Shown piece by piece: positions 15,737 to 20,126 of a stretch of DNA of 64,000 bases. Source of the DNA: Paractinoplanes bogorensis. Lineage in GTDB: Bacteria; Actinomycetota; Actinomycetes; Mycobacteriales; Micromonosporaceae. Position numbers and translations under genes: made by a program. Positions within the stretch are counted from its first letter, which is position 1. Every line of letters begins with the position of its first letter. The stretch lies in assembly GCF_018829635.1 (NCBI RefSeq), contig NZ_JAHKKG010000014.1, forward strand, positions 186,001 through 250,000, read 5' to 3'. Under the pieces are notes generated by a model. That model was not told where the DNA came from, did not search any database, and was given only the letters and a program-made list of their open reading frames with translations.

Positions 15737-18355
15737 CTAGTGCGTTTGTGGAGTCGACAAGGCGTACGGGAAAAGCGGCGTAAGTGACGCACCTACCGCA
15801 AGTCCGGTCTTGAGCAGTTCGCCCGCGGCGGCGGACGGCAGCGGCCGCGAGAGGAGATACCCCTGGGCGAAGTCGCAGCCCATCATGCGCAGGGCGGCCA
15901 GCTGGGCCTCGTTCTCGATGCCCTCGGCGACCGTGGTCATGCCGAAGCGGTGCCCGAGGCGGATGATCGTGTCGACCAGCGGGTCGCCCTCGTGGTCGAG
16001 GCGGTCGATGAAGCTGCGGTCGATCTTGAGGACGTCCATCGGGAAGCGGCGCAGGTAGGCCAGGGACGAGTAGCCGGTGCCGAAGTCGTCCATGGCCAGC
16101 ATGACGCCGAGGGCCTTGAGGCTGACGATGCGGGCCAGGTTCTCGTCGGTGTCGGTCAGCAGCACGCTCTCGGTCATCTCGAGGCACAGCTGATCGGCCG
16201 GCATGCCGGTCTCGGCCAGCACCGACGCCACCGTGGCGGCCAGGTCGCCCGCCTCGAACTGGCGCACCGACACGTTGACGGCCATCTTGAGCGGGCGGCC
16301 CCAGGCCACCGCCTGCCGGCACGCCTCGGCCATCACCCAGCGGCCGATCGGCACGATCAGGCCGGTCGACTCGGCGATCGGGATGAAGTCGAGCGGCGGC
16401 ACCATGCCGCGGGTCGGGTGCTGCCAGCGCACCAGGGCCTCGAAGCCGATGATCTCGCCTGTGGCCAGGTCGACCGTGGGCTGGTAGTGCAGCACGAACT
16501 CGTCGCGGTCGAGGGCCCGGCGCAGGTCGTCGGCGAGCTCGAGGCGCTGCACCAGCGCGTCGTGCATGGCCGGGTCGTACGTCGCGTAGACGCCGCCGCC
16601 CGCCTCCTTGGCCTTGTACATGGCCAGGTCGGCGTTGCGCTGGAGCTGCTCGATGTCGCCGTCGGCCGGGGCCGCGGCGATGCCGATGCCCGCGCCGACG
16701 TGCAGTTCGCGGCCGTCGAGTTCGATCGGCTCGTCGAGGCGGCCGAGGATCCGGGCGGCGAGGGCTTCGGCGTCGGCGTGGGCGTCGGGCGACTCGACCA
16801 TGACGGCGAACTCGTCGCCGCCCAGGCGGGCCACGACGTGCGGGGCGGGCACGGCCTGGAGCAGCCGTTCGGCCACCCGCACCAGCAGCTGGTCGCCGGC
16901 CGCGTGCCCGAGGCTGTCGTTGACCTCCTTGAACCCGTCGAGGTCGAGGAAGAGCACCGCCACCGGGTTGCGGGTGGCCGCCGCGGCCAGCTGTTCGCGG
17001 AACAGCGCGCGGTTGACCAGCCCGGTCAGCCCGTCGTGGTAGGCGTCGTGGCGCAGCTGGTCCTGCAGGTGCTGGGCGTCGCTGATGTCGCGGGTGTTGA
17101 ACACGAGTCCCTGCACGTACGGGTCGTCCATCAGGTTGGTGACCGTCATCTCGGACAGCCGCCAGGTGCCGTCCTGATGCGGCAGCGTCACGTGGATCGT
17201 CGTGATGCCACCGGGGCGTTCGAGGGCCTCGTCCAGGGCCGCCTGGATGATCGGTCCGGACCGCCCTCCCACGACGTCGACCAGACGCCGGCCGACGATG
17301 GCGGCGGCCGGGAAGCCGTAGAGGCGCTCGATCGACGAGCTCTGGTAGCGCACGGTCGAGTCGGCCTCGAGGATCGCCAGCGAGTCCGAGCTCTGGTCGA
17401 CCAGCGCGCGGAACCGCTGCTCGGAGGTGGCGAGATCGGCCGTCCGGCCGGTGACCCGCTCCTCGAGCCGGCGGGCCAGCTGACGGTTGTCGAGCACGAG
17501 GATCACCTCGCGCAGCACGATGAGCGCGATGGACAGGAACCGGCACCAGGTGAAGACGGCCGAACTGGTGTGCCCGGCGGCCAGCCACACGGTGCCCGAG
17601 ACCACGGCGCCGAGCACGGCCAGGTAGGGCAGCAGCAGGCTCGGCGTCCGGCGGCGGGCCTGGGTCTCGGCGTCCGGCTCCTCGTCGACGCGGTTCATGG
17701 CCGCCGCCCGCAGCGCCGCGATCAGCAGGAACGCGAAGGCGGCGAACTGACCGGCGGACGGCAGCGACATCCACCGCCAGGCGTCGCCGACGATCAGGCC
17801 CACGGCGACGCTGTCGGTGACGGCCAGCAGCAGCAGGCCCAAGCTGATCAGGACGAGCGTGGACGAGCCGCGGTAGCCGCGGTGCCAGCGGGCGAGGGCG
17901 GCGATCGCGACGGTGCCCAGCACGACGTCGGCCATCGGCGCGGCGATCAGGCTGAGCCGGCCCGCCTCCTCGGCCGGCAGCACCACCAGGTGCCAGCTGG
18001 TCATCAGCAGCGACACCGCGACCAGCAGGGCGTCGACGGCACTGCGGACCTGAGCGAGCCGGGACTGCCGGGGTTTCGGGACGACGAACAGGCAGACGGT
18101 GACGATCGTGACCAGCGCGACGTGGCCGAAGCCGCGGACCGGTCCACCGGCGAAGACTCCCACCGAACCGGCCAGGGCACCGGTGCCGAGCCCGATCCAG
18201 GCGGTCCGGGTTCCCCCGTCGCGCCGGCGGACCACCCGGGCGGCCGCGACGGCGGCGGCGAGAGCGGTCAGTGCGGTGATCACGTTGATCGTCAGGTGGC
18301 CGGCTGTGGCGGCCAGCACGGCGGCCGCGGCCAGCACGAGCAGCGGGACCGTCAT
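15737..18355 (-). CDS. membrane PAS-GGDEF-EAL protein (c-di-GMP turnover)
   Basis: 872 residues: about eight to nine membrane helices in the first 285, a PAS domain (about 312-425), a diguanylate cyclase GGDEF domain (about 435-595) with intact GGDEF at 512-516, and an EAL phosphodiesterase domain (about 610-855) with EAL at 639-641, plus DDFGTGYSSL and the KIDRSFI motif. Both active sites look intact, so it could make or degrade cyclic di-GMP depending on the membrane/PAS signal; this messenger controls development in filamentous actinobacteria. No regulator adjoins it. Confidence 0.95.
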   Translation of the reverse strand: MTVPLLVLAAAAVLAATAGHLTINVITALTALAAAVAAARVVRRRDGGTRTAWIGLGTGALAGSVGVFAGGPVRGFGHVALVTIVTVCLFVVPKPRQSRLAQVRSAVDALLVAVSLLMTSWHLVVLPAEEAGRLSLIAAPMADVVLGTVAIAALARWHRGYRGSSTLVLISLGLLLLAVTDSVAVGLIVGDAWRWMSLPSAGQFAAFAFLLIAALRAAAMNRVDEEPDAETQARRRTPSLLLPYLAVLGAVVSGTVWLAAGHTSSAVFTWCRFLSIALIVLREVILVLDNRQLARRLEERVTGRTADLATSEQRFRALVDQSSDSLAILEADSTVRYQSSSIERLYGFPAAAIVGRRLVDVVGGRSGPIIQAALDEALERPGGITTIHVTLPHQDGTWRLSEMTVTNLMDDPYVQGLVFNTRDISDAQHLQDQLRHDAYHDGLTGLVNRALFREQLAAAATRNPVAVLFLDLDGFKEVNDSLGHAAGDQLLVRVAERLLQAVPAPHVVARLGGDEFAVMVESPDAHADAEALAARILGRLDEPIELDGRELHVGAGIGIAAAPADGDIEQLQRNADLAMYKAKEAGGGVYATYDPAMHDALVQRLELADDLRRALDRDEFVLHYQPTVDLATGEIIGFEALVRWQHPTRGMVPPLDFIPIAESTGLIVPIGRWVMAEACRQAVAWGRPLKMAVNVSVRQFEAGDLAATVASVLAETGMPADQLCLEMTESVLLTDTDENLARIVSLKALGVMLAMDDFGTGYSSLAYLRRFPMDVLKIDRSFIDRLDHEGDPLVDTIIRLGHRFGMTTVAEGIENEAQLAALRMMGCDFAQGYLLSRPLPSAAAGELLKTGLAVGASLTPLFPYALSTPQTH

Positions 18356-18401
18356 GCTCTGCAGAATCGGGTCGGCGGGCGGCCACCTGAGGAAACGGCG
18401 A

Positions 18402-18433
18402 CGGCGGCCTCCCCCGTACGGGAAAGACCGCCG
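18402..18433 (-). terminator. hairpin after the microprotein gene
   Basis: CGGCGG (18402-18407) pairs with CCGCCG (18428-18433) and encloses the 10-bp palindrome CCCGTACGGG (18413-18422). It lies 10 bp after the stop of the microprotein gene and upstream of the GGDEF-EAL gene, so it may isolate the small transcript. Confidence 0.5.
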
Positions 18434-18442
18434 CCGCTCAGA

Positions 18443-18502
18443 TCACTTCTTCTTCTTGTTCTTCTTGTCTTTCTTCTTGTCCTTCTTCGACTTCTTGGCC
18501 AT
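18443..18502 (-). CDS. 19-residue lysine-rich microprotein
   Basis: ATG 18502 to TGA 18443 encodes a 19-residue peptide with 13 lysines (begins MAKKSKKDKK, ends KKKK; others are Ala, Ser, two Asp and Asn). A near-perfect Shine-Dalgarno GGGAGG sits 7 nt before the ATG, much better than at most genes in this window, and a hairpin follows. Nearly all lysines are AAG. It is too short for standard gene calling. The composition suggests binding to nucleic acid or ribosome, as for tiny basic ribosomal proteins such as bL37, but no homology is claimed. Confidence 0.6.
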   Translation of the reverse strand: MAKKSKKDKKKDKKNKKKK

Positions 18503-18538
18503 GGCGGAGCCTCCCTGGAGTCGATCTCGCTACTGCCG

Positions 18539-18550
18539 AGCGTTAACGCT
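18539..18550. promoter_or_regulatory. AGCGTTAACGCT palindrome upstream of microprotein gene
   Basis: A perfect 12-bp palindrome centred about 43 bp upstream of the microprotein start, in the gap after the GH26-like gene. It is a candidate operator; I recognise no known regulator. Confidence 0.35.
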
Positions 18551-18620
18551 ACGGAAATTCGCGACGACGGGAAGCCCAACGCAGATGAACATCAGGTGTC
18601 CGGAGCCCCAGGGGCACCGG

Positions 18621-20126
18621 TCAGCCCAGCTTCACCTTGAAGATCGGGTCGGCGGCCAGCTTCTTGAACGCGGCCAGCGCCGACTGCGTGCTGTCGATGC
18701 TGATGTCGCGGTCGCCCTCGTCGTCCTTCTTCGTGTCGAAGTACACGATCGCCTTGATCGCCGGGCGCTTGGCCAGCTCGGGCAGGACGCTGTTGTAGAC
18801 GGCGGACTTGTCGGTGGTCTTGCCGACGCGGTGGTAGGCACCCCACTCGGCGATCATGATCGGCTTGGCCGCGTGCTGCTTGGTCGCCCAGTCGTACCAG
18901 TTGGTGCCGCCGCCGGTCGGGGCGCGGTCGAGCAGGTCGTTGAACTTGCCGTAGTGGTAGTAGCCGGCCTCGACGCTCACGTACGAGTCCAGACCCATCC
19001 AGTCGACGACGTCGTCACCGGGGTACAGGTCCTTCCACCAGCTCTGGGCCATCCACTTCTCGTTGCCCATGTAGGCCATGACGTTGACGACGTTGGTGAC
19101 GCCCTGGGCGCGCAGGCGCAGGATCGTGTGGCGGTACATCGCGGCGAAGTCCTTGGCCGTCATGCCGGAGCCGGCCGTGGCGACGACGTCGTTCTCGGGC
19201 TCGTGGTTGAGAACCAGGAAGAACTTCTTCCCGTACGCCTTGGCGCGCGCGGCGAACGCATCGATGCGCTTGTCCTGCTGGCCCTGGGCAACCTTGGCCC
19301 ACGTCGAGCCGTACGCGATCTTCCAGTTGGTCAGGAGCACCCGGGGGGCGGCCGCGTCGTTCGTCATCGCGATCTCGGCCTTGGTCGGGAAGAGCTCGTC
19401 ACCCTTGTGGTAGGTGTGGAAGATCGTCGAGGTGCGGCCGCTGAGCTTCTCCCAGTCCTTGAGGGCCTGGTCGCGCGGGGCGGTGGTGAAGCCACCCGCG
19501 GCGGCGCCCCAGAGCACGCCGCACGACGGGACGAGGTTGGCACCGGTGGTGCAGTTCTTGTAGTCCGTCGCGGGCACCGGCGGCGACACATCCGTGTCCG
19601 TGGTGACCTCGAGGACCGGGGCGCCGGACTTGGCCTCGGCCGAGTTGAAGCGCACGGCGGCACCGGTCGAGGACAGCGCGAACGAGTACGTGCCCGGGCC
19701 CTTGACGATCTTGCCCAGGTCGGCGATCAGCGTCGCGCCGGGGACGGCGCTGGAGACGACCGCGCCGAGCGCCGGGGCGGTGGCGGCGGTGAGCTTGCCC
19801 TCGGTCCAGCCGGTGCTGGCGACCTGGCGGATCGAGACAGTGCTGGCCGACGCGGCCTGCGTGGTCAGGATCAGGCGGGCCCCGGCGACCTTGGTGCCGG
19901 CCGGGACGGCGAACTTGAGGAACGAGGTCTTGATCTCCTTGCCGATGACCCCGGCGACCAGCTTGGTCTCGCCACCGAAGGCGACCGAGGTACGGGCGCT
20001 CGACACGTAGGTGTCGTCGCCCGCGGCGATCTTGATCGTGCCGGCGGCGTGGGCCGGGCTCGCGATCGCCGCCATGCCGGTGGCACCGGCGAGCACCGCG
20101 GTCAGCACCGAGAACTGCTTACGCAT
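18621..20126 (-). CDS. secreted DNRLRE-domain GH26-like glycoside hydrolase
   Basis: 501 residues. Signal peptide ending SPAHA; a DNRLRE/CBM96-like beta-sandwich (about 30-175: IKIAAGDDTYVSSA, TSFLKFAVPAGTKVAGARLIL); a hinge with PPVPATD; and a TIM-barrel domain (about 195-500). LVLNHEPEND and MIAEWGAYH look like the acid/base and nucleophile Glu positions of GH26 (mannanase clan A). Probably an extracellular beta-mannanase or related glycanase. ATG 20126 follows GGGGGAGAG. A secreted dipeptidase-like gene is divergent across a 160-bp gap. The GH26 assignment is by motif pattern only. Confidence 0.8.
   Translation of the reverse strand: MRKQFSVLTAVLAGATGMAAIASPAHAAGTIKIAAGDDTYVSSARTSVAFGGETKLVAGVIGKEIKTSFLKFAVPAGTKVAGARLILTTQAASASTVSIRQVASTGWTEGKLTAATAPALGAVVSSAVPGATLIADLGKIVKGPGTYSFALSSTGAAVRFNSAEAKSGAPVLEVTTDTDVSPPVPATDYKNCTTGANLVPSCGVLWGAAAGGFTTAPRDQALKDWEKLSGRTSTIFHTYHKGDELFPTKAEIAMTNDAAAPRVLLTNWKIAYGSTWAKVAQGQQDKRIDAFAARAKAYGKKFFLVLNHEPENDVVATAGSGMTAKDFAAMYRHTILRLRAQGVTNVVNVMAYMGNEKWMAQSWWKDLYPGDDVVDWMGLDSYVSVEAGYYHYGKFNDLLDRAPTGGGTNWYDWATKQHAAKPIMIAEWGAYHRVGKTTDKSAVYNSVLPELAKRPAIKAIVYFDTKKDDEGDRDISIDSTQSALAAFKKLAADPIFKVKLG

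Follow-up and report, generated by a model that had tools for sequence, protein, structure and literature searches.

A lysine-rich microprotein gene of Micromonosporaceae with a control region resembling that of phosphate-starvation genes

Can a reading frame of 19 codons, most of them for lysine, be a gene, and if so, what would its product do in the cell? The question was raised by an earlier note on the window, i.e. the whole 64,000-nucleotide stretch of Paractinoplanes bogorensis DNA analysed here, which had described a minus-strand microprotein gene with its own expression signals. The frame was confirmed on that strand, with the ATG at 18502-18500, the TGA at 18445-18443 and 13 lysines among the 19 residues of MAKKSKKDKKKDKKNKKKK, and so were the GGGAGG lying 7 nt upstream of it (18515-18510) and the downstream hairpin, whose arms (18398-18417 and 18418-18437) are 80% complementary and whose region exhibited a minimum free energy of −46.6 kcal/mol over 91 nt (z −3.77 versus shuffles). 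A terminator scan requiring a T-run listed none for this hairpin. The microgene and both flanking genes are all encoded on the minus strand, with the GGDEF-EAL gene starting 87 bp downstream. Of the neighbours named in the note, this one was well supported, while the GH26-like label of the 18621-20126 product fell below the Pfam cut-off (score 19.8 versus 20.2), and a good CBM96/DNRLRE match was obtained instead. Rfam yielded nothing at gathering scores in the window, no NCBIfam family was assigned to the peptide, and the own genome revealed no second similar copy, with the best DNA match beyond the query at E 0.002 and a single match to the peptide pattern. The features are collected in Table 1.

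Table 1. Coordinates of the microgene, its signals and its flanking genes in the window
Feature	Position	Strand	Remark
CDS, lysine-rich microprotein MAKKSKKDKKKDKKNKKKK, 19 aa	18443..18502	-	ORF reading; 61 loci across 56 genomes, counting its own
Shine-Dalgarno GGGAGG	18510..18515	-	7 nt 5′ of ATG
Predicted -10 hexamer TAGCGT	18546..18551	-	in conserved block TTTCCgTAnCGTTAAC
PHO-box-like heptamer GTTCATC	18584..18590	-	TTC starts 38 bp 5′ of -10
Degenerate partner repeat GGACACC	18595..18601	-	11 bp 5′ of heptamer
12-bp palindrome AGCGTTAACGCT	18539..18550	-	overlaps -10 box; palindrome in 1/16 promoters
GC-rich strong hairpin 3′ of stop	18398..18437	-	probable terminator without T tail
Downstream PAS-GGDEF-EAL gene	15737..18355	-	well supported; read as separate from microgene
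Upstream CBM96/DNRLRE protein gene	18621..20126	-	profile matches; GH26 match marginal

The strict peptide pattern MAKKxKKxKK was detected in 50 of 300 family genomes, i.e. 33 of the 67 genus genomes and 17 of the 233 family genomes from outside the genus (seven other genera), and its reversed control in none; across the class it was found in one of 394 genomes, the own one only (reversed control 0). The remaining 34 genus genomes were searched at 3 mismatches and matches were obtained in 27, but the reversed control matched in 26 of the 34 as well, so that search alone proves nothing, and only six genomes in which an ORF was read (G021, G022, G040, G045, G051 and G053) were accepted from it, which brings the genus genomes with a relative to 39 of 67 (33 by the strict pattern and six variants). 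In the other 28 the microgene was not found, and it therefore looks dispensable, absence among the other 3-mismatch genomes meaning ‘not found’ only, because some matches were left unread. A DNA search of the 67 genus genomes returned matches at E ≤ 0.01 in 53, of which the weak ones may be noise, and each of the 30 best-matching loci fetched from it, the window's among them, encodes a relative of 15–22 residues at the nearest MAK/VAK start. A wider contig scan gave at least 116 stretches, mostly unrelated K-rich N-termini, which were excluded from the family counts. Five genomes carry two copies of the microgene. A chance ORF, which a length far below that usually annotated might suggest, is strongly disfavoured and in our judgement extremely improbable, given its presence in 56 genomes against none for the strict-pattern controls, and the retention of the Shine-Dalgarno and promoter elements. 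Related-looking microproteins (VAKKSKKSKKSKKGKK and VAKKTKKGKKGKKGKK) with similar upstream regions were also observed in a Streptosporangiaceae MAG (L125), i.e. outside Micromonosporaceae, and in an Actinomycetota MAG (L162).

The 61 loci were chosen by likeness to the query, and their reading required a start of [A/G]TG-GCN-AAR, 12–45 residues and a lysine content of 42% or more; this selection predetermines the MAK start and some of the charge, but not the stop, the Shine-Dalgarno, the hairpin or the promoter. The peptides are 15–22 residues long with one of 35, and while the length varies, the net charge is +10 or +11 at 54 of the 61 loci. Their 1155 residues comprise 771 K, 115 D, 87 S, 66 A, 61 M, 34 N and 18 G, with one residue each of R, E and P across all the peptides; bulky hydrophobic residues are absent except for the start methionine. 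Sixty of the 61 end in KKK, and a KKx periodicity was displayed, the spacing between successive non-lysine residues being 3 in 149 of 201 cases. The start codon is ATG at 60 loci and GTG at one, and a purine run of at least 5 within positions −18 to −1 was present at all 61. An identical 19-residue peptide occurs at 13 loci, where it is encoded by 10 distinct DNAs, and the variable sites among them numbered zero, one (in the stop) and five (four synonymous and one in the stop) at the first, second and third codon positions, respectively. The 72 nt downstream folded at −40.5 kcal/mol, compared with −29.1 kcal/mol for 495 neighbour genes, and stems of at least 10 bp were identified at 55 of 61 loci versus 153 of the 495 neighbour genes. 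Hence, the frame, the Shine-Dalgarno and the downstream hairpin are all kept in relatives, with DNA changes under the identical peptides confined to synonymous sites and the stop, so that the lack of conservation named in the earlier note as refuting was not observed. This comparative evidence supports what had been proposed, namely a genuine gene that is too short for annotation and has expression signals of its own. As judged from the sequences, the microgene appears to be a real gene that is conserved in many relatives and was overlooked by annotation.

Shared-gene analysis of stretches of about 7–14 kb, with genes called by a simple GC-position heuristic that extended the CHAD ORF over the microgene in L079 and L081, divided the 61 loci into 27 neighbourhood groups, and no neighbour was conserved across them. 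The synteny with the GGDEF-EAL gene that had been put forward as a check did not hold up, that neighbour being present at 16 of 61 loci. The arrangement in the window, a run of lysine codons followed by a hairpin and, 87 bp on, a same-strand gene, could be that of a leader peptide, in which ribosome stalling at the 13 lysine codons would control the hairpin and hence the downstream gene by attenuation, and 25 of the 44 same-strand downstream genes indeed start within 150 bp of the microgene. Against this, the downstream gene is encoded on the opposite strand at 17 of 61 loci and differs between the neighbourhood groups, and no lysine-metabolism family was detected in a Pfam scan of 21 neighbour proteins. 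Attenuation was thus rejected as a general reading for lack of a conserved same-strand downstream gene, and we regard it as improbable. Likewise, a secreted or self-acting cationic antimicrobial peptide would fit the strong positive charge, but neither a hydrophobic stretch able to be a signal peptide nor a neighbour conserved across the groups was found, which makes this explanation very improbable. Because of the 27 groups and the 17 oppositely encoded downstream genes, the microgene is a free-standing unit with its own promoter, a strong Shine-Dalgarno and its own hairpin, and with this independence from neighbours, clues to function are best sought in the promoter. Its neighbours change frequently for a unit this small, about 200 bp (27 groups among 61 loci, and two copies in five genomes). 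L071-L074, from another genus (g7), share 6-phosphogluconate dehydrogenase and a Na+/H+ antiporter as neighbours.

In the 16 promoters of the window's neighbourhood group, conservation was concentrated in GTTCATCt and TTTCCgTAnCGTTAAC, with GTTCAYY in place in 12 of them, and a k-mer count using no prior motif identified GTTCATCTT in 10 of 61 microgene upstream regions versus 0 of 270 control neighbour promoters. Sites of the FliA/WhiG and TcrA types had also been considered for this promoter and were set aside, since the count pointed to GTTCATC. The 12-bp palindrome AGCGTTAACGCT pointed out in the earlier note does exist at 18550-18539, as part of the second conserved block (TTTCCgTAnCGTTAAC), but it is not conserved as such: it is perfect in the window alone and lacking in the 15 orthologous promoters compared, and an operator role for it was rejected. 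Of the 16 loci having TTCAYY 25–50 bp before TAnnnT, 14 including the window showed a distance of exactly 38 bp, a test made after seeing the data, and apart from L251 and L085 they all (12 of 14) come from one neighbourhood group, that of the window, so such counts overstate independence because the loci are related.

According to excerpts of PMC4415409 and PMC7866108, the PHO box of Streptomyces coelicolor has the motif GTTCACC, arranged in direct repeats of 11 nt. In the pstS promoters obtained from 30 of the 56 carrier genomes, the TTC of the proximal GTTCAYY invariably (30 of 30) lies 37 bp before the -10, and 26 of them also have an intact second heptamer 11 bp upstream. The window's promoter therefore shares with that of pstS, an actinobacterial Pho-regulon gene, the GTTCAYY heptamer at a nearly equal distance from the -10, but differs in combining one strong heptamer with a degenerate partner, both heptamers being strong in most pstS promoters, and its PhoP site is a predicted one. 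With a pstS-derived matrix, the window's heptamer pair scored over the control 90% level and under the 98% level. Across the family, GTTCAYY 37–38 bp before the -10 was found in 14 of 61 microgene promoters versus 3 of 269 controls, and anywhere within 160 bp on either strand in 31 of 61 versus 30 of 269. Pair tests were performed on 45 non-redundant upstream regions of the 61: heptamer pairs spaced by 11 bp and matching at least 12 of 14 letters occurred in 11 of 45 versus 4 of 270 controls, compared with 0–1 of 45 at nine other spacings, and by the pstS-derived matrix 16 of 45 regions had 11-bp pairs above the 98% control level versus 5 of 270 (other spacings, 0–9 of 45). The overall rank shift was less specific, with AUCs of 0.80 at spacing 11, 0.82, 0.79 and 0.82 at spacings 10, 22 and 33, and 0.77 for a single heptamer, so that only the high-score tail favours spacing 11. 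By the pair or the geometry test, a box was identified in at least one member of 13 of the 27 neighbourhood groups and not found in the other 14, even though a single box in one member was enough for a group to be counted; L266, one of the two CHAD-linked arrangements, was also without a box.

Other upstream patterns were noticed in the course of these comparisons. A GGTAAAC/GGTGAAC-type repeat in the opposite orientation is located 58–59 bp before TAnnnT at L075, L077, L078, L255, L257, L259 and L268, all from other groups; GGTTCAGT, which resembles the PHO heptamer, lies 36 bp before TAnnnT upstream of L071-L074; and L247 and L252, which are without GTTCAYY, have in common an upstream inverted repeat GCATCGTTCGATGC, possibly the site of another regulator.

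The likeness of this control region to those of phosphate-starvation genes suggests, at the level of DNA sequence, that a tiny positively charged peptide is made when phosphate is short. In the window's lineage the microgene would be read from a PHO-box promoter, for which activation by PhoP under phosphate limitation is the most likely control, with both PhoP binding and low-phosphate induction predicted. A peptide with a charge of about +10 to +11 that hardly varies would then accumulate, and since drift in its sequence and length leaves this charge almost unchanged, it would most simply serve as a counter-ion, neutralising and condensing a phosphate polyanion, putatively polyphosphate alone or polyphosphate bridged to DNA or RNA. 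The PHO promoter together with the CHAD linkage makes polyphosphate the most consistent polyanion. We give an even chance to this reading as a whole, i.e. a PhoP-controlled polycation from a free-standing microgene that neutralises and condenses a phosphate polyanion, with polyphosphate as the best candidate.

As to the CHAD linkage, CHAD genes were present in all 56 carrier genomes searched, at 72 places with 1–2 per genome, and in five of the 56 one lay within 2 kb of the microgene, while in 51 none did; about 0.03 genomes would be expected by chance, a rough estimate from some 1.3 CHAD genes per 10 Mb. The five fall into two different arrangements: in four genomes of the genus Dactylosporangium the CHAD gene adjoins the microgene and is divergent from it, and in G005, of the window's genus, it lies immediately 3′ of the microgene in the same orientation. 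Of the CHAD neighbours, one representative (L081) was seen to have a CYTH part, and L075, L077 and L079 belong to its BLAST cluster. Part of PMC6537752 describes CHAD as binding polyphosphate but not nucleic acids. The microprotein may resemble CHAD proteins in relating to polyphosphate, and it is their genetic neighbour in the five genomes, but it is without the folded helical domain described in that part of PMC6537752, the CHAD profile spanning 228 positions and the peptide 19 residues.

The same charge could also be that of a general nucleic-acid polycation, which would bind DNA, mRNA or rRNA in the nucleoid or ribosome regardless of phosphate, the PHO-like boxes being incidental or belonging to another OmpR-type regulator. 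Other OmpR-type regulators such as GlnR and AfsR/SARP may bind similarly spaced repeats. A charge of +10/+11, the KKx periodicity, the want of hydrophobic residues other than M and A (and one P) and the 14 of 27 groups without a recognisable box would all suit such a role, whereas the GTTCAYY-to--10 geometry close to that of pstS, the linkage to CHAD genes and a patchy distribution (39 of 67 genus genomes), ill-suited to a core ribosomal part, argue against it; we consider it possible though somewhat unlikely. The actinobacterial small ribosomal proteins bL37 and bS22 are very short, basic and arginine-containing core components. The microprotein is likewise very short and basic, but is patchily distributed, in contrast to these proteins as they are generally described.

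For the counter-ion reading, a precedent by analogy is offered by the K-rich AlgP of Pseudomonas, since it is, by the portion of PMC9239181 consulted, a DNA-binding protein that associates with polyphosphate granules, i.e. a lysine-rich protein on such granules which also binds DNA. With the histone H1-like C-terminal tails of AlgP and PhaF the microprotein shares the character of a lysine-rich polycation; in that account, however, AlgP has KPAA repeats in a tail of 154 residues, and a helical structure is predicted for its N-terminus, whereas the microprotein has 19 residues, is KKx-patterned and is without proline, and a KPAA-type repeat domain is absent from the family (the 61 peptides contain a single proline among their 1155 residues). 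The small DUF1127 proteins of Agrobacterium, often below 50 residues, act on PhoR according to excerpts of PMC12501420; they too are small proteins tied to phosphate control, but are set apart, by the description given there, as another family acting through protein contact with PhoR. Work on this peptide or on a lysine-rich Pho microprotein, or data on its expression, was not found among the papers listed in searches of the open-licence literature. If the counter-ion reading is true, a conserved polylysine microprotein family too short for usual gene finding would join the phosphate-starvation response, and it would provide a minimal natural peptide for asking by what means polyphosphate is condensed in cells and kept separate from nucleic acids; with a charge that hardly changes as length varies, the selected property is also directly testable. 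That lysine-rich microproteins are in general genetically encoded, phosphate-starvation-induced polyphosphate counter-ions, which arose independently in Micromonosporaceae and Bradyrhizobium, is a doubtful extension of it.

Finally, a PhoB-like box resembling CTGTCAC-N4-GTGTCAT was observed about 132–138 bp 5′ of the ATG at seven loci of one short K/A microprotein family (L141, L153, L176, L194, L206, L222 and L233), the first four of which are from Bradyrhizobium. These seven, brought together in hindsight because their upstream DNA is similar, matched 12–13 of 14 letters, compared with scores of at most 10 for the other 26 of the 33 K/A loci, and 12 was reached by 13 of 1320 random windows.
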